Shown: one piece after another, positions 3,767 to 60,593 of the stretch
Position numbering within the stretch: the stretch's first letter is position 1
Layout: the number at the start of each line of letters is the position of its first letter
Assembly: GCA_011049545.1 (NCBI GenBank)
Contig: DRHQ01000091.1
Coordinates: 1 to 64,000 of the forward strand
From: Candidatus Aminicenantota bacterium
Lineage (GTDB): Bacteria; Acidobacteriota; Aminicenantia; Aminicenantales; Aminicenantaceae
Reading direction: 5' to 3'
Length of the DNA: 64,000 nucleotides
Position numbers and translations under genes: made by a program
Notes under the pieces: model-generated
Told to the model about the DNA's origin: nothing
The model's database searches: none
What the model saw: only the letters and a program-made list of their open reading frames with translations

Positions 3767-4035
3767 GATTTGATTTATATTGTTCAGGGGTTTGATTTAT
3801 CAAACCCACATTTTTGTTCTTCAGGGGCTTGGTTTTTCCTGAGAAGGGATTTGATTTATCAAACCCACATTTTTGTTCTTCAGGGGCTTGATTTTTCTTG
3901 TGTAGGGGTTTGATTTATCAAACCCACATTTTTGATTATAAAAATAAACTATATCTCTGATAAATTAAATCCTGCATGAAGAAAAATTTATTCACCATTT
4001 AAAAGTTCGGGCTTGATAAATCAAGCCCCTACAAG
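3767..4035. repeat. Cluster of palindromic GGGYTTGAT-TT/AA-ATCAARCCC repeats
   Basis: Three copies of GGGTTTGATTTATCAAACCC or a one-base variant begin at about 3788, 3846 and 3906, in near-identical tandem units of about 59 bp that also repeat CACATTTTTGTTCTTCAGGGGCTTG. A fourth, opposite-facing version (GGGCTTGATAAATCAAGCCC) is at 4009-4028. Each copy has 9-bp arms with a 2-bp centre. The 313-bp gap between the genes holds little else. Confidence 0.9.
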
Positions 4036-4079: not shown

Positions 4080-5405
4080 ATGGATACAAGTCGTAGGGAT
4101 TTTCTAAAAAACATTGGCTTGGGCATCGGAAGTTTAAGTGCTTTTGGTTTAACCGCAAAGAACGCCCAAGCTGAGCTTAAGAAAAAATTAAACAAGATAA
4201 AAGGTTTACCCTCAACCGAGATTGCTCAAGATGAAGATTTCTGGTTCTACGTTCAGCAGGCTTTTAATTGTGACAGGAGCATCATCAACCTCAACAACGG
4301 AGGTGTTCATCCAGCCCCAACAATTGTCATGGATGCTGTTCACCGCTACCTGGATTTCGCTAACGGGGCCCCTGTTTATAACTCCTGGGAAGTCCTCCGG
4401 CCCAGAAAAGAACTCATAAGAAAAAAACTGGCTGATACTTTCGGCTGTTCGCCTGAGGAGATTGCCATAACCAGGAATGTAACTGAAGCCATGCAGATCG
4501 CTCTTCTTGGGCTTGAGCTTAAGCCGGGCGATGAGCTGCTGACAACCACCCATGACTATCCTTCCATGAAAAACGCCCTTTTGCAGAGAGAAAAAAAGGA
4601 AGGGGTAAAAGTCAAAATGTTCCCATTTCGCTATCCCCCAAAAAATATAAAAGAGCTGGCTGATGTTTTTGAAGAAAATATTACATCCAGGACAAAGCTC
4701 ATTGAAGTCTGTCACATCACCAATCTCACTGGACAGATCTTTCCAATTAGAGAAATCTGTCAGATGGCAAGAAAGCGAGGAATAGAAGTAGTGATAGATG
4801 GAGCTCATGCTTTTGGACATTTCGATTTCAAGCAGAAAGACCTCGGCTGCGACATCTACGGTGCTAACCTCCACAAATGGATGATGGCTCCTATAGGCAC
4901 AGGTTTTCTTTATGTGAAAAAAGAAAAGATCAAGAAGATATGGCCTCTTTTTCCTGCCTCTGATCCTTTGAGTGATGATATCAGGAAATTTGAAAACATC
5001 GGAACCCATCCTGATCCTTTAGAACTCGCAATAGGAGAGGCCTTGGCCTTCCATCATGGGATTGGCGCCAAGAGGAAAGAAGAGAGAATGCGCTATCTGA
5101 GGAATTACTGGGCAAAAACTCTTGATAAGCTCCCTGGCGTAAAAATTCTGACTTCTTATGACCCGGAACAGTCGTGCGGGATTGGGACTTTTAAAGTTGA
5201 AAACATGGATCTGCGTAAATTGGTTCAGGTTCTGTTCGAGAAACATAAAATCTACATCATCACAGTCGGAATTCCTTCTTTTGAATTGGATGGTGAAAAG
5301 ATAACTGGAATACGTGTAACACCAAGCATCTACACAACCCTTCGGGAATTGGATGTCTTTATCGAGGCGGTCTCTTATTATCTAAAACACGGACTTCCCA
5401 GCTGA
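4080..5405 (+). CDS. Tat-exported aminotransferase class V-fold PLP enzyme
   Basis: The start at 4080 is preferred over an in-frame ATG at 4041 because it follows AAGGAGAAGGGA and places the twin-arginine motif SRRDFLK at residues 4-10. The mature part is a fold-type I PLP enzyme: IDGAHAFGH carries the PLP-binding Asp (about residue 240) and ANLHKWMMAP the Schiff-base lysine, Lys266. Similarity is to the isopenicillin-N epimerase / cysteine desulfurase-like branch. 441 residues is a normal length. Export of a PLP enzyme by Tat makes sense because the cofactor must be loaded in the cytoplasm. The reaction is unknown; epimerase, lyase or desulfurase are all possible. It precedes a second class V enzyme at 5533. 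Confidence 0.85.
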   Translation: MDTSRRDFLKNIGLGIGSLSAFGLTAKNAQAELKKKLNKIKGLPSTEIAQDEDFWFYVQQAFNCDRSIINLNNGGVHPAPTIVMDAVHRYLDFANGAPVYNSWEVLRPRKELIRKKLADTFGCSPEEIAITRNVTEAMQIALLGLELKPGDELLTTTHDYPSMKNALLQREKKEGVKVKMFPFRYPPKNIKELADVFEENITSRTKLIEVCHITNLTGQIFPIREICQMARKRGIEVVIDGAHAFGHFDFKQKDLGCDIYGANLHKWMMAPIGTGFLYVKKEKIKKIWPLFPASDPLSDDIRKFENIGTHPDPLELAIGEALAFHHGIGAKRKEERMRYLRNYWAKTLDKLPGVKILTSYDPEQSCGIGTFKVENMDLRKLVQVLFEKHKIYIITVGIPSFELDGEKITGIRVTPSIYTTLRELDVFIEAVSYYLKHGLPS

Positions 5406-5532
5406 AGAAGAGTATGTCTGCCTTGGAATAAAGATAGTAGGCAAAAACAAGGATTATTACCTGAGATAAAGTTATTTTGCAGGGGTGAACATAATTACCT
5501 GTGATAAATATATTTAAGGGGAAAACCTGGAG

Positions 5533-6756
5533 ATGAGATTGGATTTAAAAAAGGATCTGGCTTTGATACGGAAGAAATTTCCTATCCTGGAACGCTGTGT
5601 ATATCTCATCAGCAATTCATTGGGAGCCGTTCCCCAGAAAGCGCTGGAGAATCTACAGGAATTTTATCAGATGTGGGCAGAGGAAGGAGTGAGTGCCTGG
5701 CAGAAGGAATGGTGGGACCTTTCGCGAGAAGTGGGAAACAACGTGGCTTACTTTTTGGGGGCAAAGGAAGATGAAGTGACAATGGCACCAAATGCAACCC
5801 ACTGCCATTGGGTGGTTCTATCGACTAAATTTCTTGCCCAAGACGAGAGAAGAAAGAAGGTTATCATGACAGATCATGATTTTCCTTCTATGTTATATGC
5901 CGTTTCAAAAATCTCAGATTTTAAGGGGTGGAAGCTTGAGATTGTGAAAAGCAACGGCAACCCAGCAATTAATGTCGAGGATATTTTAAAACGAATAGAT
6001 GAAGAGACCCTATTCGTTGCCACTTCCCATGTCTATTTTAAATCAGCTTTCATCCAGAACATAAAACAGATTTCTGCCAGGGCACGAGAGGTGGGCGCCC
6101 TGACCCTTATCGATGGCTACCACGCACCAGGCATCATTCCCGTGGATGTCAAACAGCTAGATGTAGACTTTTATATCGGAGGCTGCCTGAAGTGGCTTTG
6201 CGGAGGCCCGGGAAATGCCTTCCTGTATGTCAAACCAGAGCTCTCAGAGAACCTTCAACCTCAGTTAACTGGCTGGTTTGCTCACAGAGAACCTTTCCTC
6301 TTCGCCCAGGAGATGGAATATGCCAGAGGAGGACAAAAGTTCCTGTCAGGAACCCCGCCCATACCGTGCCTTTACACAGCAAGGGCCGGCTTGGACATAA
6401 TAAAAAAGATAGGAATCCCTGGTATACGGGAGAAATCACTCTCCCTTACTGAATTGATTATAAACAAAGCCAAAAAAAGAGGATATCTCCTTTTCACACC
6501 CGAAGAGAATAATCTCAGGGGAGGATCAGTATCAATCAGTTTGCCCCATGCTTTTCCAGTCAAGCAGGCCTTAGAGAAACGAAACGTTAAAGTTGATTAC
6601 AGGAAAGGGCAAGATAAAGAGCCAGATGTTATAAGAGTGGGCCCCCATTTTTACACTAAAGATGAAGAAATCGATATTTTGTTCAGAGAAATCGATGCTA
6701 TTTACGCTTCAGGGGAATTCAAGAAATATCCAAAGGAAATTAAACATGTAACTTAA
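5533..6756 (+). CDS. Aminotransferase class V / kynureninase-like PLP enzyme
   Basis: A cytoplasmic 407-residue fold-type I PLP protein starting at an ATG eight bases after a GGAG. The segment LISNSLGAVP near the N-terminus and GGCLKWLCGGPG, with Lys220 as the likely Schiff-base residue, are the two regions that most resemble kynureninase. LIDGYHAPG near residue 195 supplies the PLP-binding Asp. The segment WAEEGVSAW resembles the kynureninase substrate region. True kynureninase would hydrolyse L-kynurenine to anthranilate and alanine, but no other tryptophan-degradation gene is nearby, so the family name is secure and the substrate is not. It lies about 130 bp after the Tat-exported paralogue, perhaps co-transcribed. 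Confidence 0.82.
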   Translation: MRLDLKKDLALIRKKFPILERCVYLISNSLGAVPQKALENLQEFYQMWAEEGVSAWQKEWWDLSREVGNNVAYFLGAKEDEVTMAPNATHCHWVVLSTKFLAQDERRKKVIMTDHDFPSMLYAVSKISDFKGWKLEIVKSNGNPAINVEDILKRIDEETLFVATSHVYFKSAFIQNIKQISARAREVGALTLIDGYHAPGIIPVDVKQLDVDFYIGGCLKWLCGGPGNAFLYVKPELSENLQPQLTGWFAHREPFLFAQEMEYARGGQKFLSGTPPIPCLYTARAGLDIIKKIGIPGIREKSLSLTELIINKAKKRGYLLFTPEENNLRGGSVSISLPHAFPVKQALEKRNVKVDYRKGQDKEPDVIRVGPHFYTKDEEIDILFREIDAIYASGEFKKYPKEIKHVT

Positions 6757-6785
6757 TCCAATCCAAAACCTTCTATATCAAGATT

Positions 6786-6914
6786 ATGAATCAGGATCAG
6801 CCTGAGTACAAAGCATTAGAGTATCCTGAAATTGCCCGGCGTATTAAGAAAAGCGAGTATGCTGAAGCCCTAAAATTGGCCAAAAAATATGGCCTTACTC
6901 GTCTGGCAAGATAG
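6786..6914 (+). pseudogene. C-terminal fragment of a PflX-like radical SAM protein
   Basis: This short frame encodes 42 residues ending in a segment that contains EYPEIARRIKKSEYAEALKL. That is the usual C-terminal tail of PflX-type radical SAM (pyruvate formate-lyase activating enzyme-like) proteins. The radical SAM core with its CxxxCxxC motif is absent upstream, where the complete class V gene ends at 6756. It is most simply a remnant of a deleted gene. The rest of the 386-bp gap (6915-7142) shows no other gene; an AAAAGGAGG at about 7010 is not followed by a usable start. Confidence 0.55.
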
Positions 6915-7142
6915 GTTAAGAGATAACAGAGAAAACCTGAAATTTACCCAAGGATTTGCGTTTGGGGGGGGTGTCTAAAATATATGGTCCAACATATTCC
7001 TTTAATATAAAAAAGGAGGCAGATCCCTTTTTTTCTTCTTTTTTTTATTGAGAAAAAAAGATACTTACAAACATGTTGATTTAGTTTGAGATTTGCCTTA
7101 AATTAATTATTGGAAGATATTTTTACTTAGAAGATTATTTTA

Positions 7143-9503
7143 ATGAAAATCCTTAGAATTTTTCTCCTTTCTCTCATCTCATTTTGCCTCTTGATTCAAG
7201 GAATTCATGCTGAAATCGAGTATAGATGGAAAGATGTCTACATAGGCGCTTTGGAGGCTAAGAACTGGGGTGGCGTTGTCCTTGCTCCAAATCAAGAGAG
7301 TGTATTCGCTTTTCGAATCCAGATTGAAAAAGAGAACGAAGTTGCCGATGAAAATGATATTTTTTATCTCATCTCCGAAGTTGGTCCGCACTCTCCCGAT
7401 TGTACGTATGCAAGGATAAAACTGGATTTGAGCCTTCCTTTTAAAAGAGGAAGTGAAACTCCCATTCTTATAAAGCCTCCCTCAAAAAAAGATACATTAA
7501 CTTTGGAGTGGTCGCGTCAGGATGAAAAAACAGTCGTAGGACGGATAAAAGCTCCCTCAAACATAAAGATTAACCTTGTGCATTATTTCCCCTGGAATAT
7601 TGAAGGGACATATCTCATTCTTCCAGACGGGCAGATAAAAGGAGAGAGCTCAGGTTTAAGTAAATATCATTATTTGCTTTGGACAGACACCAAAGGAGAA
7701 CTAACCGCAGATTCTCCAGATGATGAGTTGGTTTTTTCTTACTCTATGGAAGGCAAAAGAGCCCTCTATTTTGTGGCCGGAGTAGGGGAGGAAGAAAAGA
7801 TTTTGCGCTACCGCACATATCGCTATAAAAACAAAGGGGCAATCGATTCTATGCTGGAGGAGGAAAAAAACAGATACAGCAGTAAAAGAGTGAGAATAAA
7901 GGGACTCTACGAAGGTACAGCAAGGGCCATCACAAATAATCTATTCTGGACAATGCTCTATCAACCTGGCAACCACAGACTTTATACACCTGGAGGACGA
8001 GGATGGATCTTCTCCACTCCTGACGGAAATCCTGGTCATTGGAAGATATTCGAATGGGATTCATTCTTCAACGCCTTAGGGGCCGCTGTGGAAAGTTCTA
8101 AGCATGCGAAAGACATTTTAAAGGCTGTCCTGGAAACCCAGTACCCTAACGGCAATATCCCCAACTGGAGAAGCCGCTTTGGCGGGACACCTGACAGGTC
8201 CCAGCCGCCAATAGGTTCTTATGTTGTTTTGAAATTATTCCAGAGGTTTGGAGATTTAGAATTGCTGAGATATGCCTATCCTTATCTTGTAAAGTGGCAT
8301 TCTTTCTGGAAAGAGGAGAAAGATAACGGACAACTGCGCCGGGACGGAAACAGAGATGGTCTCCTTGAATGGGGAACAGATACAGAATTCTTGGCTAAAA
8401 GTGTCCCTCCTTGGGAAGAAAATACAGAAGGGAAAAAACGAGCTACGCTCGAGTCAGGACAGGATGATTTACCTAATTGGGACGATGCTCCCTTTAGTCA
8501 GGACACTGGAACATTAATTATGAACTGCATCGACTTAAACAGCCTCTTTGCTCTCGATGCTTGGAGCCTGGCTGAAATTGCCAATATCCTTAATAAAAGG
8601 GATGATTATATAAACTACTTTGCTGAATATGAGACAATAAAAGAGCTTATAAACGAGCATCTTTGGGATGAAAGAGAAGGGTTCTATTTTGATCGCTACT
8701 GGGATGGCAGATTCTCGACAAGAAAAGCAGCCTCGAATTTTTATCCTTTGCTTGCCGGTATTCCAGATAAAACAAGGGCCTTGCGAATGATAAGGCACCT
8801 CCTCAATCCTGAAGAGTTCTGGGGAGAATTCGTAATACCTACTATCTCCCGGGATGATCCTGCTTATAAAGACCAGCAGCGCTGGAGAGGCTCAATCTGG
8901 CCACCGACCAATTACTTAATTTATCAAGGTTTAAAGGCCTATCATTTTGATGCCATAGCTTCTGAACTTGCCAAAAAAAGTGCTGACTTGTTCCTCCGGA
9001 CCTGGGATAATTTTCAGCTTTGTCCAGAATATTTTGATTCAAGAACGGGAGAAGCGGGAGGACAAAGGTATCAGAGCTGGGGTTCTCTTTTTGCTTTAGT
9101 TGCCCTGGAAGAGTACTTAGATTTTACTCCCTGGGAGGGATTCAGATTTGGAATGATTGATCCTGATAAGAAAGGAAAGCTTTCCAGAATTTCCATCCAG
9201 GATCGCCACTATGATGTGGAAGTTTCATCCTCTGCAGTCAGGCTCAAAGAAGAAGGCAAAGAGATTTTAAGGGCGAAGGGAAGCGCTGTTTTTCGCCGCT
9301 TTCTTTATTCTGAAAATGAAATCTCGTTTGAAGTGATAACGTTAGAGAAGAGAGAGATAAAGGTACAATTTTTGATCAAGGGAAAATATGAACTTTTAGT
9401 GGATGACGAGACAAAAAAGGTGTTTAAAGGGAAATCAGTGAAGTTTAAAATTCCTGAAGGCGAACATTCTGTTTTGATTCTTCTTTTAGAAAAACAGGAT
9501 TAA
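7143..9503 (+). CDS. Secreted GH63-like glycoside hydrolase (glucosidase/trehalase-type (alpha/alpha)6 barrel)
   Basis: A 786-residue protein with a signal peptide (about residues 1-23, cleaved after IHA). Residues about 30-250 form a beta-rich N-terminal domain. The (alpha/alpha)6 barrel begins near residue 270 with GNHRLYTPGGRGW and EWDSFFNALGA (Trp305-Asp306, likely the acid region). It continues with NGNIPNW, RDGNRDGLLEWG, RWRGSIWPPTNYLIYQG and CPEYF around residue 628 (likely base region). These are hallmarks of GH63 and related GH37-like enzymes, which cleave alpha-glucosidic or alpha-mannosyl-glycerate-type linkages with inversion. The C-terminal 110 residues are a beta domain. It appears monocistronic and acts in the periplasm or outside. 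The exact sugar is not predictable. Confidence 0.82.
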   Translation: MKILRIFLLSLISFCLLIQGIHAEIEYRWKDVYIGALEAKNWGGVVLAPNQESVFAFRIQIEKENEVADENDIFYLISEVGPHSPDCTYARIKLDLSLPFKRGSETPILIKPPSKKDTLTLEWSRQDEKTVVGRIKAPSNIKINLVHYFPWNIEGTYLILPDGQIKGESSGLSKYHYLLWTDTKGELTADSPDDELVFSYSMEGKRALYFVAGVGEEEKILRYRTYRYKNKGAIDSMLEEEKNRYSSKRVRIKGLYEGTARAITNNLFWTMLYQPGNHRLYTPGGRGWIFSTPDGNPGHWKIFEWDSFFNALGAAVESSKHAKDILKAVLETQYPNGNIPNWRSRFGGTPDRSQPPIGSYVVLKLFQRFGDLELLRYAYPYLVKWHSFWKEEKDNGQLRRDGNRDGLLEWGTDTEFLAKSVPPWEENTEGKKRATLESGQDDLPNWDDAPFSQDTGTLIMNCIDLNSLFALDAWSLAEIANILNKRDDYINYFAEYETIKELINEHLWDEREGFYFDRYWDGRFSTRKAASNFYPLLAGIPDKTRALRMIRHLLNPEEFWGEFVIPTISRDDPAYKDQQRWRGSIWPPTNYLIYQGLKAYHFDAIASELAKKSADLFLRTWDNFQLCPEYFDSRTGEAGGQRYQSWGSLFALVALEEYLDFTPWEGFRFGMIDPDKKGKLSRISIQDRHYDVEVSSSAVRLKEEGKEILRAKGSAVFRRFLYSENEISFEVITLEKREIKVQFLIKGKYELLVDDETKKVFKGKSVKFKIPEGEHSVLILLLEKQD

Positions 9504-9525
9504 TATAAACCACTTCTTATTCTTT

Positions 9526-10326
9526 CTATTTTTTCCCTTCTAAATAGGCTCTTTTCAGCGTATCACCCCTGACTCCCTGTCTTAGAGCCTCTAGAGCTAA
9601 AATCTCGTCTGGAGGGATATTGCCAAGGTTAACGTTGATTCCCTGACGAAAGATTAAAGCCTGCTGCTGATTTTTCAGGGGAGCTTCCCACATTAAACAA
9701 TTCGTGTCTTTGACTCCAGCAATGATGTTATCAACTTCATCGTGTTTAATCTCTCCTTCCTTATCAAATATTCCAACGGCTTTCCCAGCCTCCCGGGCTT
9801 CGATAATAACCTTCAAAGCCCCGTTTTCCATATCTTCTCCTATCAGCTGGTGAACAAGGGCAATAGGCAGAACTTCTTTCGGGTCTTTTTTTCCCACTTC
9901 AGTAATGACTTTGAAACCTTTATCCAAAGATTTTTTTACGGCATCCTGTCTGGTTTTTCTACTTATCTCGATCGTTCCATCAGAGACTTCAATTGCAGAG
10001 AATCCAAGCTCTTTGGCTTGTTCCAAATATTTGTCAAAGACCTCCTGCCAGATAGCTATCTCCAGAAAAGTACCTCCTGGCATGACATCTATATTGCATG
10101 AGGTGATCATCTCGTTCTTTTTCCTCAAAAGGTCCTTATCATAGAAGGCAGAAGTCCCAAAGGTTAGCTTGATGATATCAATGTAGTCGCCCGCAACCCG
10201 GATCAAATCTTCGAGGCGATGAAGGCCCATTCCTTTATCAATAACCATAGTTACGCCCGCCTCTCTGGGCTTGGCTGTTCTCCCTTCAAGGGGCATCCTA
10301 ATAATATTTTCCCAGGCTTTGCTCAT
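9526..10326 (-). CDS. comA: Phosphosulfolactate synthase (ComA-like)
   Basis: The start at 10326 follows AAAAGGAGAAAAGG. It gives 266 residues, the normal length for PF02679; a longer frame to 10386 would overlap the upstream gene. Recognisable segments are GVTMVIDKGMGL, DIIKLTFGTS, VMPGGTFLEIA, GFSAIEVSDGTIEI, KVITEVGKKD and LMWEAPLKNQQQ, all typical of ComA. The family adds sulfite to phosphoenolpyruvate to give (2R)-phospho-3-sulfolactate, the first step of coenzyme M synthesis in methanogens and of sulfolactate formation in Bacillus. No comB, comC or comDE homologue is visible here, so the end product is open. It lies directly downstream of the HprK-like gene and is probably co-transcribed with it. 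Confidence 0.88.
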   Translation of the reverse strand: MSKAWENIIRMPLEGRTAKPREAGVTMVIDKGMGLHRLEDLIRVAGDYIDIIKLTFGTSAFYDKDLLRKKNEMITSCNIDVMPGGTFLEIAIWQEVFDKYLEQAKELGFSAIEVSDGTIEISRKTRQDAVKKSLDKGFKVITEVGKKDPKEVLPIALVHQLIGEDMENGALKVIIEAREAGKAVGIFDKEGEIKHDEVDNIIAGVKDTNCLMWEAPLKNQQQALIFRQGINVNLGNIPPDEILALEALRQGVRGDTLKRAYLEGKK

Positions 10327-10358
10327 CCTTTTCTCCTTTTTTTTAGAGTTAGACTTTT

Positions 10359-11366
10359 TCAGCCGCTCAAAAGATCTCCCCAGCAATCATCTGGGTTTGA
10401 GAGAACAGAAGCGATCTTAGTGATTGTCTTGTGATGGACGAGCTGGCTTGCATATTTTAGCCTCGCCAGAGCCATCTGGTTCTCATCCAATCCCAAAACT
10501 GGTATTTTATCGTATAGAATCACGTTCTCAGCTATTTTATGGGAGATGTTGTCAAACAGGGCTTTTGCAGCTTTTCTTCTATCCTCTATGAGATCCAGAA
10601 GAAAACCTTGGCGCCCTTCTTCAATCCGAGGAAACAATATCACGACAGACCTGGGGGTTTTGAGTTCTTCAAAGTCAGTTTTGTAAGGTGAGAGATCAAG
10701 GGCAATCTTTTTCTGCCACTCCTCACCAGCTTCTTGAGTTTCAATTTTAGGTAAGAACTGAGGAAAATTATACATCAATGTACCCAGTCTCACGTTATCA
10801 ACAAGTGAACCCATAAACCATGATACGGCATCCTTTTCAATCCGGAAATGGACGGTTTCTGTTGAAAAGAGTTTGAGCCCTTTAGCCAGGCCACTGAGAA
10901 GATAGACGGTTTTTCCGCTTCCAGCTCCTCCTATAACAACAAACATTTGATCTTTTTTTTCTTGGTAGAGCGCGCAAGCGTGGAAGTTATAAATCCTGTG
11001 CTTTCTTTCCAGTAAATAGAGAGCATATCTATAAAGAAACCCCTGGTTTCCCCACAGACTAAACCTTAAGTCCGAAGCTTCTCGAGTGAGCTTGAGAAAT
11101 GGCCCTCTAAATCTGGCTTTTTCCCCCGAAAACTCAAAAGAGGGATCCTCCATAGATTCTTCAACCGAGATATAGCCATCAAGGTCTGCTGAATAGGGGA
11201 TGCTCTCAACATCTTTAAAATCTGTAAGTAGCGACTTGACTTCTGTTTTGAGTGGAAAGTGAAAAAGAAGCTCTTCTCTATTAGATTCGATCCCTATTTT
11301 TACCTCTAGTATCTTTAACCCTGCTTTGTACACAATTGTTTCCTCGTTTATCTTTGATAACTTCAT
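10359..11366 (-). CDS. HprK-like P-loop protein of unknown function
   Basis: A 335-residue cytoplasmic protein with a Walker A motif GGAGSGKT at 146-153, preceded by a hydrophobic strand (MFVVI). This arrangement, with a beta-rich N-terminal half and KTVYLLSGLAKG after the P-loop, resembles the C-terminal kinase domain of HPr kinase and related PEP-carboxykinase-like ATPases. Such proteins often sit in biosynthetic clusters without an HPr partner. The gene ends only 32 bp before the comA-like start, suggesting co-expression and a possible role in phosphosulfolactate metabolism. The HprK signature outside the P-loop is weak, so a generic P-loop kinase remains possible. Confidence 0.6.
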   Translation of the reverse strand: MKLSKINEETIVYKAGLKILEVKIGIESNREELLFHFPLKTEVKSLLTDFKDVESIPYSADLDGYISVEESMEDPSFEFSGEKARFRGPFLKLTREASDLRFSLWGNQGFLYRYALYLLERKHRIYNFHACALYQEKKDQMFVVIGGAGSGKTVYLLSGLAKGLKLFSTETVHFRIEKDAVSWFMGSLVDNVRLGTLMYNFPQFLPKIETQEAGEEWQKKIALDLSPYKTDFEELKTPRSVVILFPRIEEGRQGFLLDLIEDRRKAAKALFDNISHKIAENVILYDKIPVLGLDENQMALARLKYASQLVHHKTITKIASVLSNPDDCWGDLLSG

Positions 11367-11439
11367 GATAAAAAAATAAAATTTAACTCTACAATAACTT
11401 GATGCGAAATGCGAGACATAATAGCCCGAGATAAGGCAA

Positions 11440-11500
11440 ATTGGGAGTCAGGTCTTATCATCGGGATAATTAGCCTGATTTATGAATAATCCAGGCTAGA
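11440..11500 (+). repeat. Composite intergenic repeat (GGGAGTCAGGTCTT ... ATGAATAATCCAGGCTAG)
   Basis: TTGGGAGTCAGGTCTTATC at about 11446 is followed by ATGAATAATCCAGGCTAG at 11482-11499. The same two modules, in the same relative order, occur on the minus strand at 40215-40175. The second module alone occurs at 39992-40008. It lies between the HprK-like gene and menG. Confidence 0.65.
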
Positions 11501-11532
11501 TAAATCTAGAGAAAAAAAGGGAAAAACAATTC

Positions 11533-12225
11533 TTATTTGATGGCAGTGTGAATGGCGGAAACACCAAGGAAAAGAGAACGATGAGTAATACGGGCGAACC
11601 CTGCCTCACGGAGTATCGAAGAGAATTCCTCAGGAGGAAAAAAACGCGGGATTGTATAAGCAAGATATCTGTAAGCGGATTTAGAGCCCGAGAGAAGAAA
11701 TCCCAATTGTTTTACAGTCAGTTTTATATAGAGATGAAAAAACTTCTGGATAATTCTAATAGAAGGCTGACTTGTTTCAAGATTCACAAAATGCCCTCCA
11801 GGTTTGAGAACACGATGAAATTCCTTTAGATGAGCAACCAGCTCGCGTTTGTTAGGGTATATGTTCCGGGTAGCAAAAGATATGGTCACTAGATTGAATG
11901 TCCTATCAGCAAAGGGAAGCTGGCCTGACTCGGCAAGAATAAAAGAGAGGTTTGGAATTATTCTCTTTTCTCGAGCTTTAGCTATCATCTGATGACAGAA
12001 ATCAGCAGAAACAACCTTGACTTTTTCACCTGCCAGGCGTGAAAGATAAAGAGCCATTTCTCCAGTACCACTGCAAACATCCAACCATAGAAAACCCTTG
12101 GCTCTGACCGCTTCCCGAGCTGCTTTCTTCCGCCAAAGAATGTCAAACCCAAGTGTCAGGACATGATTAATAAGCTCATAAGTTTCTGCAGCCTCAGAAA
12201 ATATTTTTTGAATGCCTTTTCTCAT
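11533..12225 (-). CDS. menG: Demethylmenaquinone methyltransferase (UbiE/MenG family)
   Basis: A 230-residue class I SAM-dependent methyltransferase. IFSEAAETYELINHVLTLG and DILWRKKA at the N-terminus, DVCSGTGEMALYL (49-61) as the SAM glycine loop, FADRTFNLVTISFATRNI and EFHRVLKPGGHFVNLETSQP are the UbiE/MenG signatures. The family C-methylates demethylmenaquinol, the last step of menaquinone synthesis, at the membrane surface. The length is normal. Presence of this gene implies a menaquinone-based electron-transfer chain. UbiE-like enzymes also include unrelated methyltransferases, but the two signature blocks make the assignment firm. No other men gene is in the window. Confidence 0.9.
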   Translation of the reverse strand: MRKGIQKIFSEAAETYELINHVLTLGFDILWRKKAAREAVRAKGFLWLDVCSGTGEMALYLSRLAGEKVKVVSADFCHQMIAKAREKRIIPNLSFILAESGQLPFADRTFNLVTISFATRNIYPNKRELVAHLKEFHRVLKPGGHFVNLETSQPSIRIIQKFFHLYIKLTVKQLGFLLSGSKSAYRYLAYTIPRFFPPEEFSSILREAGFARITHRSLFLGVSAIHTAIK

Positions 12226-12290
12226 TCATTACTCTCTAAACGTTCTTTAAAGATTCAATTAGAAATCTATCCAATAGAGAATATAATTAA

Positions 12291-12800
12291 GGTAGGTTTG
12301 ATAAATCAAGCCCGTACAAGATATAACCCAGATCCCTGCCTAAGATAAATCAAATACATACACTAGACAAGTTAAGCCCACATAAATAATACTTTTCGTC
12401 TTTTTCTTTATTGTGGATTTATAAATCAAACGTCACAAATATTAATAAGGTGGGCTTGATAAATCAAGCCCCTACATAAGATAACCCAAACGCATATAAG
12501 AGAAAAATCAAAACCGTTTAGTTCATTTATATATTCAAAAAGGTGGGCTTGATAAATCAAGCCCCTACATAAGAAAAACCAAACCTGTACAATTTAAATA
12601 GGTGGGCTTGATAAATCAAGCCCCTACATAAGATAATCCAAACGCATATAAGAGAAAAATCAAAACCGTTTAGTTCATTTATATATTCAAAAAGGTGGGC
12701 TTGATAAATCAAGCCCCTACATAAGAAAAACCAAACCTGTACAATTTAGATAGGTGGGCTTGATAAATCAAGCCCCTACATAAGAAAAATTAGACCTCTG
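12291..12800. repeat. Palindromic repeat cluster with a 152-bp tandem duplication
   Basis: Perfect or near-perfect GGGCTTGATAAATCAAGCCC palindromes start near 12294, 12451, 12544, 12603, 12696 and 12755, each followed by CCTACATAAGA; a decayed copy is near 12415. The spacing alternates 93 and 59 bp, because 12449-12600 and 12601-12752 are a 152-bp tandem duplication differing at two positions. No protein-coding gene lies in the 672-bp gap 12226-12897. A likely -10 (TAGAAT, 12833-12838) for the downstream amidohydrolase operon sits at its end. Confidence 0.92.
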
Positions 12801-12897
12801 CAATATTTATAGACCGGTATGTTTTTTTTTGTTAGAATACGTGGCTTGTTGAGACGGGGAAGATCTTTATTAATAATTTTTTATTGAAAGGAGGAAC

Positions 12898-14529
12898 ATG
12901 AAGATCAAAAAAAATCTTTTATTCATTTGTTTGTTTGTGGTCATTCTCCTTTTCACAGCCACCTCATCAGCCCGGGTTACCCCTACCTATGCCATTGTTA
13001 ACTGCAAGATTATTCCTGTTACTGGTTCACCTATCGAGAAAGGAATCATCATCATCCGCGATGGACTTATCGAATCCTTAGGGCCTCAAGGAAAAATTTC
13101 AATTCCAGAAGATGCTGAAATAATCAAAGCTGAAGGCCTGTTCGCCTATCCAGGCTTGATTGATGCCCATACAAATCTCTTTCTCGAGCTTCCTAAAGAA
13201 GAGCCAAGAAGACCAGGGACTAGGAGAACATCGGCCGCTGAACCCCGGCAAAAGGAGAAAGCCCAGCATCCTGATTTAATGGCTATTAAGTTTTTAAAAC
13301 CCAAAAAAACTGCCGTAGCAGACCTGCACAAAATCGGAATCACAACTGTCCTGGTTGTACCTGGAAGAGGAATCTATTCCGGCCAAAGCGTTCTCTTGAA
13401 TGTCAACGGAAACAAAGCAGCACCGATGGTTATAAAAACTCCTGTTGCTCTTCATGTGAATTTTACAACCGCGCGCGGAACTTACCCTTCCAGCTTGATG
13501 GGAACAATGGCCTTTCTCAGACAATCTTTTCTGGATACTGAACATTACTCGTCCTACAAATCTCAATTTGCAAAATCATCTCGAGGCCTTAAACGACCGG
13601 AATATAATCCTTTCTTAGAAGCTCTTTCACCCTATGTAGTTAAAAAAAACCCCGTCTTTTTTAATTGTGCCAACTTGGAAGACATCAAGCGTGCTCTTGG
13701 ACTTATCAAGGAATTCAAGCTCAACGGCTTTCTCACCGGATCAAATGAAGCCTGGAGAGTAGCCGACCTTCTCATCAAGAATGCTAAAGTTCCACTTCTT
13801 GTTTCTCTCAATTTCAAGCCTCCAATGACAAGCATTTATGTCAATCAAGGTGAAGAACTAAAGAAAAAAGCAGAGGAAGAAATTTATCCTGCTAATGCTG
13901 CGAATCTCCATAAAAAGAGATTAATGTTTGCGCTTACCTCCCAGGGACTTAAAAAACCATCAGACATTCCAAAAAACGTCCAAAAGGCGATTAAAGCAGG
14001 TTTACCTAAGGAAGAAGCTCTCAAGGCTATGACCATTATCCCCGCCAAATTCCTGGGAGTGAGCAGTTTTCTGGGAAGCCTTGAACCGGGAAAAATCGCC
14101 AATATTATTCTTACTTCTGGTGAAATCTTCGATGAAAAAACCAGGGTGGAAAGAGTTTTTGTCGACGGTATATCCTTTGAAATCAAAAAGCCTCCCAAGG
14201 GAGAGAAGCCTACAAAAGTGAATATTGCTGGAAAATGGAGCGCCACAGTCTCCAGTCCCATGGGCGAGTTGGAAACGATCCTCGAACTCGAACAAGATGG
14301 AAACGAAATCAGCGGAAGCATCTCATCGAACATGGGTAAATGGGAAATAATAGAAGGGATTTTAAGCGGAAATGAACTCGCCTTAAGCATAGAAGCTACA
14401 ATAATGGGAGAGACGATGGATATGACTTTCAGCGGGACAGCAGAAAACGACTCTATAGAAGGAACAATGGCTGTCATGGAATGGAGTATGGAGCTGAAGG
14501 CAAAAAGAATCCCTGAAGGGGAATTTTAA
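12898..14529 (+). CDS. Secreted amidohydrolase-fold protein lacking metal ligands, with C-terminal beta domain
   Basis: A 543-residue protein with a signal peptide (about 1-25) and an amidohydrolase (imidazolonepropionase/dihydroorotase-like) body. The usual HxH metal motif after the first strand is changed to His91-Thr-Asn93 (DAHTN). The late Asp region reads ALTSQG instead of the usual SD, so the binuclear metal site appears lost. Residues about 445-543 add a beta-sheet domain (IAGKWSATVSSPMGELET onward) common as a C-terminal appendix in such proteins. It has a strong AAGGAGG ribosome site and is followed 13 bp later by an active-looking paralogue. A scaffolding or regulatory partner role is inferred; altered catalysis is not excluded. 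Confidence 0.8.
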   Translation: MKIKKNLLFICLFVVILLFTATSSARVTPTYAIVNCKIIPVTGSPIEKGIIIIRDGLIESLGPQGKISIPEDAEIIKAEGLFAYPGLIDAHTNLFLELPKEEPRRPGTRRTSAAEPRQKEKAQHPDLMAIKFLKPKKTAVADLHKIGITTVLVVPGRGIYSGQSVLLNVNGNKAAPMVIKTPVALHVNFTTARGTYPSSLMGTMAFLRQSFLDTEHYSSYKSQFAKSSRGLKRPEYNPFLEALSPYVVKKNPVFFNCANLEDIKRALGLIKEFKLNGFLTGSNEAWRVADLLIKNAKVPLLVSLNFKPPMTSIYVNQGEELKKKAEEEIYPANAANLHKKRLMFALTSQGLKKPSDIPKNVQKAIKAGLPKEEALKAMTIIPAKFLGVSSFLGSLEPGKIANIILTSGEIFDEKTRVERVFVDGISFEIKKPPKGEKPTKVNIAGKWSATVSSPMGELETILELEQDGNEISGSISSNMGKWEIIEGILSGNELALSIEATIMGETMDMTFSGTAENDSIEGTMAVMEWSMELKAKRIPEGEF

Positions 14530-14542
14530 AGGAGAAAGAGCC

Positions 14543-15868
14543 ATGAAGAAAAAAACTATTGGTTTCATTTTAGTTGTGAGTCTGGTGATTTTTTCAAGTT
14601 TTTCCTTCGGACAGGATCTCCTGATAAAGAACGGTACCATACTGACGGTTACCAAAGGAAAAATACTAAAAGGAGACATTCTAATAATCAAAGGCATCAT
14701 AAAGCAGATTGAAGAGAACATCAAAGGACCTAAAGGAATAAAAATCATAGATGCATCAGGAAAATTTGTTATTCCAGGTATAATCGATTCTCACACGCAT
14801 ATAGCCCTCTCAGGAACAAATGAAAATGCGGAAGCAATAACCGCCGAAGTCAAGATGCGGGATGTTCTCAATGCTGAAGACCGTTCCATCTATACGGCAA
14901 TATCAGGTGGAGTTACGATGGTTCATACCATGCACGGCAGCAGCAACCCGATAGGAGGCGAGAACATAGTCATCAAGACGAAATGGGGAAAGACTTCGGA
15001 AGAGATGATCGTTCATGATGCTTACAGGACCTTAAAATTTGCCCTGGGTGAAAATCCCAAGAGGTCTAATTCTCCTACCTTGGGAACTCCTCGCTATCCA
15101 CAATCCCGCATGGGAGTGAATGCCATTATCCGCCGTGAGTTTCTAAAAGCAAAAAACTATATGGAACAGTGGGACCGGTATCTAAAAGCGAAAAATTCCA
15201 AAAAACCTGCAAAGAATTTGATCGCGCCTAGAAAGGACTTAAGGATGGAGCAACTGGCAGATGTGCTTCGCGGGAAAATGGTGGCCCGTTGTCACACCTA
15301 TAGAGCTGATGAAACCCTGGAATTCATTAAACTTTCCAAAGAATTTGGGTTCAAGATTGCCTGTTTCGAACATGCATCTGAAGCATTCAAAATAGCCAGG
15401 GAGCTAGCTGAAGAAAAAATTGGTATCTCCGTTTTTCTTGATAGCTGGGCCTATAAGGTCGAAGCTTCTGAAGGGATTGCTTACAGTGCTGGCTACTGTA
15501 CCAAAAAAGGAGTTCTTGTTTCCATAAATTCTGACAGCGGGGAGAGAATCCGGCGGTTGTTCAACGATGCGGCAAAAGCCATGAAGTATGGCGGCCTCTC
15601 TGAAGAGGAAGCCCTGAATCTCGTAACCATCAATCCAGCCATCCAGCTTGGTGTGGAAAAGATTGCCGGGAGCCTTGAAGTCGGAAAACATGGAGATATT
15701 GCCATCTTTAACGAGCATCCTCTTAGCGCCTATACCCTTTGTGAAATGACAATTATCGAGGGGGAGGTCTATTTTGATCGAGCTCAGTATCTAAAAGAGA
15801 GAGAAGAAATGGAGAAGAAAAAGAAAAAAGAAGAGAAAAAGAAAGAGAAAAAGGGAGGGACAAAATGA
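14543..15868 (+). CDS. Secreted metal-dependent amidohydrolase
   Basis: A 441-residue protein with a signal peptide (about 1-23). It retains the amidohydrolase ligand set: His84-x-His86 (DSHTH), a His in ARCHTYRADE, a His in CFEHASEA and the late Asp in SINSDSGER. These would bind one or two divalent metals in a TIM barrel flanked by a composite beta domain. Substrates of this subfamily include imidazolonepropionate-like rings and N-acyl or cyclic dipeptides, so only hydrolase can be stated. The C-terminus is a lysine/glutamate-rich tail. The stop overlaps the next start (ATGA at 15865), so the two are translationally coupled. It is the only member of the trio with an intact active site. Confidence 0.85.
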   Translation: MKKKTIGFILVVSLVIFSSFSFGQDLLIKNGTILTVTKGKILKGDILIIKGIIKQIEENIKGPKGIKIIDASGKFVIPGIIDSHTHIALSGTNENAEAITAEVKMRDVLNAEDRSIYTAISGGVTMVHTMHGSSNPIGGENIVIKTKWGKTSEEMIVHDAYRTLKFALGENPKRSNSPTLGTPRYPQSRMGVNAIIRREFLKAKNYMEQWDRYLKAKNSKKPAKNLIAPRKDLRMEQLADVLRGKMVARCHTYRADETLEFIKLSKEFGFKIACFEHASEAFKIARELAEEKIGISVFLDSWAYKVEASEGIAYSAGYCTKKGVLVSINSDSGERIRRLFNDAAKAMKYGGLSEEEALNLVTINPAIQLGVEKIAGSLEVGKHGDIAIFNEHPLSAYTLCEMTIIEGEVYFDRAQYLKEREEMEKKKKKEEKKKEKKGGTK

Positions 15869-17139
15869 CCAAGAGAACCTTCGTCTTTGCTGTAATTCTC
15901 ATCATCTGTGCTTCCTTCTGTTTGACTCAAGAAAAAAGCCCGAGCGTTATTGCTATAAAAGGCGCAAGCATTATCCCTGTTGTAGGTGAGGATATTACTG
16001 AAGGGATCATTCTTATTAAAGACGGATTAATAGAAGCTGTGGGAAAGAACATTGATATCCCTGCAGGTGCAAAAATCATAGAAGCAGAGGGCCTTTTTGC
16101 CTATCCAGGCATGATCGACGGCTCATGTTATCTAGGCCTCCAAGAGATAAGCTCTATAAGAGCAACCGTGGATTACAAAGAAACAGGCAGAATCAATCCT
16201 CAGGTACGAACAGTGGAAGCTCTGCGACCTGACTCCATGCATATTCCTATCTCACGGTCAAACGGGATAACAGCCGCCCTTGTAGCTCCTTCTGCCGGGC
16301 TCATTTCAGGCCAGAGTGGTTTGATCAGGTTGGTCGGCTGGACTCCTGAAGAGATGATAATAAAAAGTCCAATAGCCATGCATATCCAATTTCCTTCCTT
16401 GCCTCGGTTAAGGAGGAGAAGAGAAACACAACCTCCAGAGCAGGCTTCTAAACAGGTTAAAGAATTAAAGGAAATCCTGAAACAGGCTCGCTATTATCAG
16501 AAAAGAAAAGATGCAGCCAAAAAAAACTTGAGACTTCATTTGCCTGAGTTTGATGAAAAATTAGAATTTCTTCTTCCTGTGGTTAACGGCGAACTTCCTG
16601 TCATGATTTCTGTTCACGCCGATAAAGATATCAAGGCAGCCATCAAATTCGTCAAAGATGAAAAGCTCAAAGCGATATTCTTGGGTGTCACTGATGGATG
16701 GAAGGTTGCTGAGGATATAAAAAAATCAGGCATTCCGGTTATTTTCAGCTCTCTTAATTCAGTACCTCCCAAATGGGAAGACGGCTATGATGCTTTTTAC
16801 AGGAATCCTGGTGTACTGGCAAAAGCTGGCGTCAAATTTGCTTTTTCCTCAGGGAGTGCAAGCTTAGCCAAGGATTTACCCTATCATGCAGCAAAAGCTG
16901 CTGCCTTTGGCCTGGATAAAAAAGAAGCACTTAAGGGAGTAACGATTTACCCTGCCCAGATATTTGGTGTGGACAAAATGATGGGGAGCCTGGAAAAGGG
17001 AAAGGTAGCCAACATTGTCCTCGCCGATGGAGACATACTGGAATTAAGAACCAACATCAAGCATGTTTTTATTGATGGAAAAGAAGTCGATACATCCAGC
17101 ATATACACCGAACTTCTCGAAAAGTTCAAGAAAAGATAG
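15865..17139 (+). CDS. Secreted amidohydrolase-fold protein with degenerate metal site
   Basis: A 424-residue protein with a signal peptide (about 1-21). It aligns with its upstream neighbours in the conserved amidohydrolase N- and C-terminal segments (LIKDGLIEAVG, GSLEKGKVANIVLADG). The HxH motif has become Ser87-Cys88-Tyr89 (MIDGSCYLG), and the late metal Asp position reads AFSSGSA. It should not bind the usual metals. It overlaps the active paralogue by 4 bp, which suggests a fixed stoichiometry, perhaps as the non-catalytic subunit of a heteromer. It ends the three-gene operon; the next gene has its own promoter. Confidence 0.82.
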   Translation: MTKRTFVFAVILIICASFCLTQEKSPSVIAIKGASIIPVVGEDITEGIILIKDGLIEAVGKNIDIPAGAKIIEAEGLFAYPGMIDGSCYLGLQEISSIRATVDYKETGRINPQVRTVEALRPDSMHIPISRSNGITAALVAPSAGLISGQSGLIRLVGWTPEEMIIKSPIAMHIQFPSLPRLRRRRETQPPEQASKQVKELKEILKQARYYQKRKDAAKKNLRLHLPEFDEKLEFLLPVVNGELPVMISVHADKDIKAAIKFVKDEKLKAIFLGVTDGWKVAEDIKKSGIPVIFSSLNSVPPKWEDGYDAFYRNPGVLAKAGVKFAFSSGSASLAKDLPYHAAKAAAFGLDKKEALKGVTIYPAQIFGVDKMMGSLEKGKVANIVLADGDILELRTNIKHVFIDGKEVDTSSIYTELLEKFKKR

Positions 17140-17259: not shown

Positions 17260-19104
17260 ATGAAAAACAAAACTTTCCGTTTTAGCATTCTCTTAATTGT
17301 AGTCGTATTCTTTTTGGCCGGGCTAAATTTTTCGGCTCAAAAGAGCAAACTTTTCAACTATGACGTATTAATAAAAAACGCAAGAGTGTTTGATGGATCT
17401 TTGAAACCTGCGTTTAGGGCAGATGTGGCTGTTAAAGACGGCATGATCGTAAAGGTAGAAAGGTCGATCAAAGGATCAGCAGCTAAAGTGATAAACGGCA
17501 AAGGACTTTATGTGACTCCTGGTTTCATCGATCTTCATACGCATGTCGATAGGGGAATGTATTTTGCGGAAAACAGGGCATGTCTCAATTACTTAAAGCA
17601 AGGGGTGACAACAGTTATAGTCGGGCAATGCGGTTCCAGCGCCTGGCCAATTTTCGAGAAAGCAGAAGACGTTATGAAGGTTTGGTCAAGAGAAGGAATC
17701 GGGCCCCACGCGGCTTTGCTTGTCGGACATGGAACAGTGCGGCAAATTGTGATGGGGATGGAAGAAAGAGAGCCAACGGCAGAGGAACTTGAAAAAATGA
17801 AGGCTCTCGTAAAGGAAGCCATGGAACAGGGAGCCTATGGTCTTTCTACTGGGTTGATTTATCAACCTGGTTCTTTCGGAAAAACAGATGAAGTCATAGA
17901 ATTGGTAAAGGTCATCGCTCCCTATGGCGGAATATACCACTCCCATATCCGGAATGAGAGTGATAAACTCCTTGAAGCAGTAAAAGAGGCTATAGAAATA
18001 TCAGATAAATCAGGTGCTCCAGTCCATATTTCGCATTTTAAGGTTATGGGCAAGAAGAACTGGGGTCTTGTCAGAGAAGCCTGCGCCATCATAGAAGAGG
18101 CCCGTGCTAAGGGGATTAAAGTCACTGCTGACCAGTATCCTTATCAATTCTCAAACGGTTATCCATACTCAAGTCTAATTCCGAGATCAGCCTGGCTGGG
18201 AATTGAAGAAACAGAAGGCACTGAAAGAGTAGAAACCGAAAGGTTGACATCAGAGGATGCAGAAGCGATTTTTAACCATCTCAGAGATTCTCAATTGATT
18301 GAGCTCTATAAAAAAGTTACCCCTTACTATCCTGTCTCTGAACGCCATCTACAGTTTCTCAACGAAATTCCCAGAGATAGGCTTGTAAGGCTTGTTTCCA
18401 GGAGTTTAATCAGGCCCGGAAATTTCAGGGGGCCAGGCAATACAAAAGAAAGGGGGATGTTTTTAGCGAGGATGGCAAATCCAGAAGAGGCACAGAAGAT
18501 CCGGGAGCAGATCAGAGAGTACATAGTTGACGGTAGGGGCCCGGAAAATATCATTGTTGGCATTTGTGTGGAGAAAAATCTTGAAGGAAAGTCTTTAAAA
18601 CAAGTTGCGGCTATGAAAAGAAAATCCGTAGAAGATACAGCCATAGAACTGGAACTTATGGGAGCAAGGTGCGTCCCTCTCCGCATTGGCGAAGAGGATA
18701 TCGAGTATATCATGAAAAAAGACTATGTGGGCACAGGAAGTGATGGAACTGCTCCCCCTTATGGCATAGGACTCACCCATATCCGTTCTTATTCTACGTT
18801 TCTTCATAAAATTAAAAAATATGCCCTTAAGCGAAAGTCCGTCTCCGTTTCCCATGTCATTCGATCTCAAACATCGCTCGCGGCAAAAATCATGAACTGG
18901 GATGATAGAGGTTGGATAAAGAATGGATACAAAGCTGATATAGTAGTCCTTGATCTGAATAACATAAAAACCAGGACTTCTATTTCTAATCCCCAAGCTT
19001 ACAGCGAAGGAGTCAAATACCTGCTGGTCAATGGTGAAGTTGTTCTGGACGGAGGAAAGTGGACAGGAAAGCTCCCCGGGAAAGTCATCAAGCTTAAAAA
19101 GTGA
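17260..19104 (+). CDS. Secreted N-acyl-D-amino-acid deacylase (D-aminoacylase family)
   Basis: A 614-residue protein with a signal peptide (about 1-26). Family landmarks are PGFIDLHTHVD (His93, His95), VTTVIVGQCGSS with the bridging cysteine, GLSTGLIYQPG, IYHSHIRNES and VHISHFKVMG (metal histidines) and GTGSDG with the catalytic Asp. The usual HPR(x)YGTFPRV segment is altered to THIRSYSTF, so substrate specificity may differ. It is about 60-120 residues longer than typical D-aminoacylases owing to an insert around residues 315-400. The family removes the acyl group from N-acyl-D-amino acids or cleaves D-amino-acid-containing dipeptides, in line with salvage of wall-derived or racemised peptides. 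It has its own promoter at 17204. Confidence 0.87.
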   Translation: MKNKTFRFSILLIVVVFFLAGLNFSAQKSKLFNYDVLIKNARVFDGSLKPAFRADVAVKDGMIVKVERSIKGSAAKVINGKGLYVTPGFIDLHTHVDRGMYFAENRACLNYLKQGVTTVIVGQCGSSAWPIFEKAEDVMKVWSREGIGPHAALLVGHGTVRQIVMGMEEREPTAEELEKMKALVKEAMEQGAYGLSTGLIYQPGSFGKTDEVIELVKVIAPYGGIYHSHIRNESDKLLEAVKEAIEISDKSGAPVHISHFKVMGKKNWGLVREACAIIEEARAKGIKVTADQYPYQFSNGYPYSSLIPRSAWLGIEETEGTERVETERLTSEDAEAIFNHLRDSQLIELYKKVTPYYPVSERHLQFLNEIPRDRLVRLVSRSLIRPGNFRGPGNTKERGMFLARMANPEEAQKIREQIREYIVDGRGPENIIVGICVEKNLEGKSLKQVAAMKRKSVEDTAIELELMGARCVPLRIGEEDIEYIMKKDYVGTGSDGTAPPYGIGLTHIRSYSTFLHKIKKYALKRKSVSVSHVIRSQTSLAAKIMNWDDRGWIKNGYKADIVVLDLNNIKTRTSISNPQAYSEGVKYLLVNGEVVLDGGKWTGKLPGKVIKLKK

Positions 19105-19195: not shown

Positions 19196-19222
19196 AGGGG
19201 CTTGATTCATCAAGCCCACCGC
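19196..19222. repeat. Palindromic repeat copy (GGGGCTTGATTCATCAAGCCCAC)
   Basis: A single copy of the GGGCTTGAT-NN-ATCAAGCCC family, 32 bp upstream of the asparaginase start, preceded by the half-copy GGTTTGATTTATC near 19137. Confidence 0.85.
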
Positions 19223-19254
19223 TTTTATAGATAGACAAATCATAAGGAGGCATG

Positions 19255-20310
19255 ATGAGAGATAAGTTTTCGAGAAGGGATTTTCTTAAAACGGGAATTG
19301 GCATCGGAGCAGCCTCGATGCTCGGAGCAGGAAAAAATCTAGCTGGAGAAGAGAAAAAAGTAGGAAAGATGTGTGTAGTATCCAGTAGAAATGGTCTAAG
19401 AACCGCAGAAAAAGCTATGGAACTTCTCAGGCAAGGGAAAGATCCATTGGATGCGGTTATTGCTGGGGTTAACATTGTTGAAAATGATCCCAAAGACACG
19501 TCTGTAGGCTATGGAGGACTTCCTAATGAGGAAGGTGTTGTCGAGCTTGATTCTTGCGTCATGCATGGCCCCACCCATAATGGCGGAGCAGTGGCCAGCA
19601 TTAGAAACATAAAGAATCCATCCAAGGTGGCCAAACTTGTCATGGAAAGAACTGACCATGCGCTTCTTGTCGGAAAAGGTGCCCTGAGATTCGCTAAAGC
19701 TCATGGTTTCAAGGAAGAAAACCTCCTGACAGACAGAGCAAGAGAGATCTGGCTTCAGCGTAAGGAAATGCTCTCAGACAAGGATTTTTGGTTTGCGCCT
19801 AAACCTGAGAAGCTCGAGAAAGAATTGGAATCCTATCTTAGTTCCTATGGAACTATCAACTGTTGTGCCCTAGATGCTTCAGGCAATCTTGCAGGTGTGA
19901 CAACCACCAGCGGGTTCTTCTTTAAGATACCGGGAAGGGTAGGGGATTCACCGATTATAGGAGCAGGCCTTTACGTTGATAATGATGTCGGAGCAGCAGG
20001 CTCGACAGGAAGAGGAGAAGCAAATATCCTTAACTGCGGAAGTTTCCAGGTGGTTAATTTCATGAGCAGAGGTTTTTCTCCAGAAGAAGCATGCCTCAAA
20101 TCATTAGAACAAATTTCCGACAAGTCAAAGCTTCTTCCTCACCTTTTAAACGAAAAAGGCCTTCCTCGATTTGGCCTAAACTTTTATGCCGTCAATAAAA
20201 AGGGTGAATATGGGGGAGGTTCCATGTGGAGCGGCCGAAACTTTGTTGTCCACGACGGGAAGGAAAATAAATTAATACCTACCGCTTATCTTTATAAAAG
20301 AAAGAGCTAA
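19255..20310 (+). CDS. Tat-exported glycosylasparaginase / N4-(beta-N-acetylglucosaminyl)-L-asparaginase
   Basis: There are two adjacent ATGs (19252 and 19255) after AAGGAGGC; the second gives better Shine-Dalgarno spacing. The N-terminus has the twin-arginine signal SRRDFLKTGIG and a hydrophobic stretch. The body is an Ntn hydrolase: the autoprocessing site precedes the nucleophile Thr in YGTINCCALDASGNLAG, followed by TTTSGFFFKIPGRVGDSPI and GAAGSTGRGE, nearly diagnostic of aspartylglucosaminidase. It should self-cleave into alpha and beta chains and hydrolyse the GlcNAc-Asn bond of N-glycoasparagine, or beta-aspartyl peptides in related members. 351 residues is normal. It lies just outside the left end of the mobile element. 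Confidence 0.9.
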   Translation: MRDKFSRRDFLKTGIGIGAASMLGAGKNLAGEEKKVGKMCVVSSRNGLRTAEKAMELLRQGKDPLDAVIAGVNIVENDPKDTSVGYGGLPNEEGVVELDSCVMHGPTHNGGAVASIRNIKNPSKVAKLVMERTDHALLVGKGALRFAKAHGFKEENLLTDRAREIWLQRKEMLSDKDFWFAPKPEKLEKELESYLSSYGTINCCALDASGNLAGVTTTSGFFFKIPGRVGDSPIIGAGLYVDNDVGAAGSTGRGEANILNCGSFQVVNFMSRGFSPEEACLKSLEQISDKSKLLPHLLNEKGLPRFGLNFYAVNKKGEYGGGSMWSGRNFVVHDGKENKLIPTAYLYKRKS

Positions 20311-29845: not shown

Positions 29846-29875
29846 TGGATGGGTAGGGGTTTGATAAATCAAACC
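29846..29875. repeat. Chromosomal palindromic repeat inside the mobile element
   Basis: TAGGGGTTTGATAAATCAAACCCACAG is a full copy of the palindromic family found across the chromosome, here upstream of the leftward HTH gene inside the element. Confidence 0.88.
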
Positions 29876-30074
29876 CACAGATGGCAAAGGTTCTCAAATT
29901 GAGAAGCTGATAAAAAGCCAGCGAGTCAAAAGAATATCAAAAGCGTGAAATCACGCCTTTGAAAAAAGACTGGGGCGACTAAGGAGGTATGATTCATAAA
30001 CCTGTAAATAAAATTTTACGGATTCTCCTTCTTCAAGAAAAAGTAGCCTGTCCCCATTTTTTGAAAACAAAGAC

Positions 30075-60551: not shown

Positions 60552-60593
60552 TTATATTTATTCCTTGAAATAATGTTATCTAAGGAGTCATGG

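Follow-up and report, generated by a model that had tools for sequence, protein, structure and literature searches.

A conserved trio of amidohydrolase paralogues in Acidobacteriota with a single metal-competent member, and a candidate exported complex

Three consecutive amidohydrolase genes on the forward strand of the window (the whole stretch of DNA that was analysed, 64,000 nt), here called A, B and C (543, 441 and 424 aa), form a unit that recurs across the Acidobacteriota. B keeps a complete metal site and both A and C have lost theirs; within the phylum, the active gene as a rule has one or more dead partners next to it. We consider it fairly probable that the three products form an exported hetero-oligomer in which B would be the sole metal catalyst and A and C would have structural or regulatory roles.

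The gene trio and its surroundings

Gene A (12898-14529, + strand; 543 aa) encodes a dead amidohydrolase paralogue with a signal-like N-terminal segment, a TIM-barrel domain and a C-terminal beta domain. It is followed by B (14543-15868, +; 441 aa), the metal-competent amidohydrolase and presumed catalytic subunit, and by C (15865-17139, +; 424 aa), another dead paralogue. The preliminary description had called the genes partly overlapping, which is right for B and C, where 4 bp are shared (15865-15868), but not for A and B, which are separated by a gap of 13 bp. Judged by eye, a hydrophobic signal-like segment stands at the N-terminus of A, B and C and of most homologues inspected. The source genome is a draft in 161 contigs. 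Upstream of A, no Rfam element was found, and there are promoter-like matches to which we give no weight as evidence. The window also encodes another Amidohydro_3 protein of 546 aa (60573-62213).

Repeat units are present upstream of A (12282-12812) and at 3788-4028, 19198-19217 and 29857-29876, each with the palindrome GGGCTTGATAAATCAAGCCC; the repeats around this palindrome are a REP-like family. A 27-base form occurs in the source genome 137 times in forward and 119 times in reverse orientation with up to two mismatches, and a reversed control gave 0 matches. The same genome has three matches to the Y1 transposase (PF01797) over cut-off.

The metal site is intact in B and degenerate in A and C

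The binuclear-type metal set is complete in B, with all of its residues encoded on the + strand: the metal ligands H84 and H86 of the HTH motif (14792-14800), which are invariant in B homologues and present in 3ooq, a Thermotoga maritima structure; K165 (15035-15037), the presumed beta-4 bridging lysine, found in 95 of 95 B homologues and in 3ooq and, by analogy with the superfamily, probably carboxylated; the invariant metal ligands H251 (15293-15295) and H277 (15371-15373); and D331 (15533-15535), an invariant catalytic or metal-binding Asp at beta-8. The preliminary description had read the HxH motif as HTN in A (residues 91-93; 13168-13176, +), HTH in B and SCY in C (residues 87-89; 16123-16131, +), with the late Asp kept only in the middle gene. 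Both readings hold, the Asp position being occupied by Q in A and by S in C, and the loss goes further than had been seen: A and C also lack the Lys of beta-4 and both of the later His residues.

This pattern extends to an alignment of 262 homologous domains (82 A, 95 B and 85 C). All six ligands are present in 94 of the 95 B domains, in 0 of 82 A domains and in 0 of 85 C domains; the sole exception in B is a dead gene from a tandem array in locus L109, which the similarity search had put with B. Even with one residue of alignment slack, A domains keep at most two of the six ligands and C domains at most three, and the second His of HxH is gone in all but two or three A homologues. Relatives whose flanking genes keep the metal ligands had been named in advance as evidence against the preliminary reading, and the full site occurs in no A or C domain. 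The pattern of ligand loss in A and C versus B is not chance.

All six columns are invariant in B. Five of the six former ligand columns are above the median core-column variability in A, and likewise five of six in C (entropy percentiles 56th-98th in A and 69th-99th in C); the SCY column is among the most variable of the C homologues, and Gly predominates at column 277 in A and C alike. No conserved polar set was found in place of the metal ligands in A or C, and no class-wide catalytic triad was seen in either. Because the former ligand columns are mostly variable, the old site does not seem to have been replaced by another conserved set, which points to a structural role rather than to a new active site.

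Family, fold and selection

All three proteins score above the Pfam Amidohydro_1 cut-off of 25 bits (A, 47; B, 64.3; C, 42.2), and all three are far under every cut-off listed for the named NCBIfam enzymes (dihydroorotase, hydantoinase, prolidase, etc.). The top PDB sequence match of each is 3ooq (E = 5e-32 for A, 9e-65 for B and 7e-39 for C), with the next match far behind, which makes the three proteins paralogues in a single narrow subfamily of amidohydrolases. The AlphaFold2 (AF2) models of A and C are barrels (mean pLDDT 83.8 and 83.5), and 3ooq is also the top PDB match of both models in Foldseek (for C, TM-score 0.79 by query and 0.87 by target). Altogether, A and C belong to the metallo TIM-barrel proteins by predicted fold, and B by its sequence similarity to 3ooq.

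The C-terminal domain of A (residues 437-543; 14206-14526, +) had been described as a beta-sandwich. The AF2 model predicts eight consecutive antiparallel strands (residues 445-537), in agreement with a beta-stranded domain; however, their arrangement looks like a barrel-like meander, and a sandwich is not proven. No Pfam family reaches its cut-off in this domain, which is missing from the A proteins of about 445 residues in some relatives.

Both A and C are under purifying selection. Against the nearest relatives, L038 and L040, dN/dS is 0.19-0.21 for A, 0.11-0.14 for B and 0.08-0.13 for C, estimates limited to these two loci because silent sites are saturated in more distant pairs. With fold, export signals and purifying selection retained and the former ligand columns variable, A and C appear to be neither decaying genes nor obviously re-used metal enzymes.

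Conservation of the trio within the phylum

In a sample of 297 genomes from across the Acidobacteriota, B (E up to 1e-30) is present in 144. The A profile, which also picks up C, matches 129 of the 297, and a comparison of the two lists by hand gave 127 genomes with both, 17 with B only and two with the A profile only. We fetched 60 regions from relatives, of which 51 were uncut and had a single B. In 41 of these 51 loci, A, B and C follow in this order within 3 kb; the regions were chosen among the better-scoring B matches, so this is not an unbiased fraction. The expectation that the trio and its gene order would be conserved in relatives is thus borne out phylum-wide. Among the remaining ten loci, A is slightly further off in one (L100), a B-C fusion precedes A in one (L123), B and C occur without A in seven and A and B without C in one (L092). 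Missing flanking genes, which had likewise been put forward as evidence against the preliminary reading, are therefore seen in a minority of loci (7/51 without A, 1/51 without C), and also as single full-site genes outside the phylum. A is thus dispensable in some lineages.

One-frame fusions join A to B in 13 loci (L074 is a natural fusion of this kind), B to C in five and all three in L114. The distances of A, B and C correlate (r 0.80-0.91), which marks co-inheritance rather than contact. At L109 (genome G006; 4673-12370), live and dead copies alternate along the array, which runs active, dead, active, dead and ends in a fusion whose first half is active and whose second half is dead.

Relatives outside the phylum

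Bacteroidota, Pseudomonadota, Bacillota and Actinomycetota are represented by homologues in plasmid records only, and the annotated ones bear the plain name "amidohydrolase," even where they are dead. A Hymenobacter volaticus plasmid (NZ_CP095062.1; L136) carries A, B and C; there the A-B fusion is split over several ORFs (4164-7214), which reflects frameshift errors in the record or else a gene that is broken, and we joined the pieces before building the tree. In alphaproteobacterial plasmids (Qipengyuania, Novosphingobium), B is followed by a dead partner, and in Qipengyuania a POT peptide transporter lies immediately upstream of the pair. In the roughly 9 kb read from each of Acetoanaerobium, Monoglobus and Nonomuraea there is one homologous gene, with the full metal set. 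Single genes with a full site are what Bacillota, Actinomycetota and Thermotoga have, which indicates that the subfamily can do without partners. Viral contigs were searched and yielded no relatives.

In a quick tree with several long branches, A forms one group (support 100), the C proteins of the trio another (99) and B together with the alphaproteobacterial first genes a third (100), and the three groups branch alike. The 3ooq sequence, included as the part shown in the sequence-search alignment, groups with the single genes. The first tree gave a hint of independent origins of the dead partners, which we do not claim, since a single dead clade was not rejected (p-AU 0.787) and had an even higher likelihood.

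A proposed complex and its alternatives

We infer a complex, its geometry and periplasmic location, the assembly or regulatory role of A and C and the kind of substrate as follows. A, B and C would be exported and would assemble into one hetero-oligomer. Only B would be a metal catalyst in it, namely a 3ooq-like hydrolase of binuclear type that cuts peptide-like or cyclic amide bonds. A homo-oligomeric ancestor may have given rise by duplication to the hetero-oligomer, B keeping catalysis and A and C keeping structure, so that A and C would fill the places held by identical mates in the homo-oligomer. They would have lost the metal site because only a structural role was selected, and they may assemble or stabilise B or shape or gate the way to its pocket. 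The conserved A-B-C order, together with the fusions A-B, B-C and A-B-C, is strong indirect evidence for a physical complex, and the fusions add to the grounds given in the preliminary description. The suggestion made there, of a periplasmic complex with regulatory or scaffold subunits, is supported. Linkage and mirrored distances would also be expected from a shared pathway without contact.

S9, tricorn-like S41 and M20 peptidases adjoin some loci, and these and the peptide transporter weakly suggest peptide-like substrates. The first gene after the trio (17260-19104) encodes a deacylase-like amidohydrolase (PRK09061 subfamily) whose HTH motif is intact, and the second (19252-20310) an Ntn asparaginase/isoaspartyl peptidase that carries a TAT signal; this deacylase-like and isoaspartyl-peptidase-like pair, present there in near relatives only, is likewise a weak hint of peptide-like substrates. 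A functional link between the trio and these two genes was considered and set aside, the adjacency being confined to near relatives. A more tentative reading goes further: the complex would be widespread and secreted, its one catalytic amidohydrolase would be active only in the company of two dedicated dead paralogues, which would form or gate the active site, and the complex would degrade a class of peptide-like compounds that no enzyme has yet been assigned to.

Another explanation, which we regard as unlikely, is that A and C serve in binding or delivery, their metal-free barrel holding peptide fragments and passing them to B or to a transporter and their pocket varying with the ligand. The TIM-barrel pocket of both is probably kept, as predicted, its columns vary as those of a specificity site might, and a POT peptide transporter adjoins a pair of B and a dead partner; however, this would not by itself explain the recurring fusions with B, and in known amidohydrolases the metals help to hold the substrate. 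It is less probable still that the three are independent proteins of one peptide-catabolic pathway, in an operon for co-expression only. Tight gene spacing and the peptidase genes near some loci would fit such an arrangement, but fusions occur in all adjacent combinations, and two of the three proteins are without a metal site and hence have no evident step of their own. We find it very unlikely that A and C are enzymes that have re-used the active site without the usual metals: both have conserved motifs of their own off the old site (in A, for instance, GQS; in C, the Glu within KETG), but the variable ligand columns speak against it, as do the lack of a conserved polar replacement set and the absence of a visible class-wide triad. 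Decaying duplicates would explain the lost ligands but can be regarded as already refuted, with frames open in dozens of genomes of many families, dN/dS of about 0.1-0.2 and deep conserved groups.

The proposed hetero-oligomer would make the trio a natural system for the passage from homo-oligomer to hetero-oligomer with pseudoenzyme subunits, in which single gene, pair, trio and fusions coexist today. Recognising that one live paralogue comes in a fixed set with two dead ones is also a warning not to assign activity to two-thirds of these genes, and the analysis names a testable, predicted secreted hydrolase of the Acidobacteriota, a group of poorly known physiology.

Comparison with known systems

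In the literature we found no published description of the trio and no paper on the function of 3ooq, which is a structural-genomics entry. 3ooq resembles the trio as the top match of A, B and C and shares all six ligands with B, but it is a single full-site gene with no dead partners among its closest tree relatives. The next structural neighbours, amidohydrolases of the prolidase type and arginine carboxypeptidases (3mtw, 2qs8, 3be7, 3n2c), are much weaker matches (fold E about 1e-10 to 1e-16 versus 1e-29 to 1e-35 for 3ooq) and are single active enzymes. Among the weak PDB matches are the CRMP/DRP proteins (dihydropyrimidinase-related proteins of animals), dead amidohydrolase paralogues with the fold retained; unlike the trio, they are found in the eukaryotic cytosol and belong to the hydantoinase branch, not to that of 3ooq.

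In the Pseudomonas ATCase complex, ATCase activity requires a pseudo-dihydroorotase chain that is itself inactive (PMC7053772), which sets a precedent for a partner's activity depending on an inactive chain of the amidohydrolase type. The likeness lies in an inactive chain of the amidohydrolase fold, which is an obligatory subunit there and is only proposed to be one here. In Pseudomonas the complex is found in the cytoplasm and its active partner, a transcarbamoylase, is not a paralogue, whereas in the trio the active partner is a paralogue and is accompanied by two dead ones.
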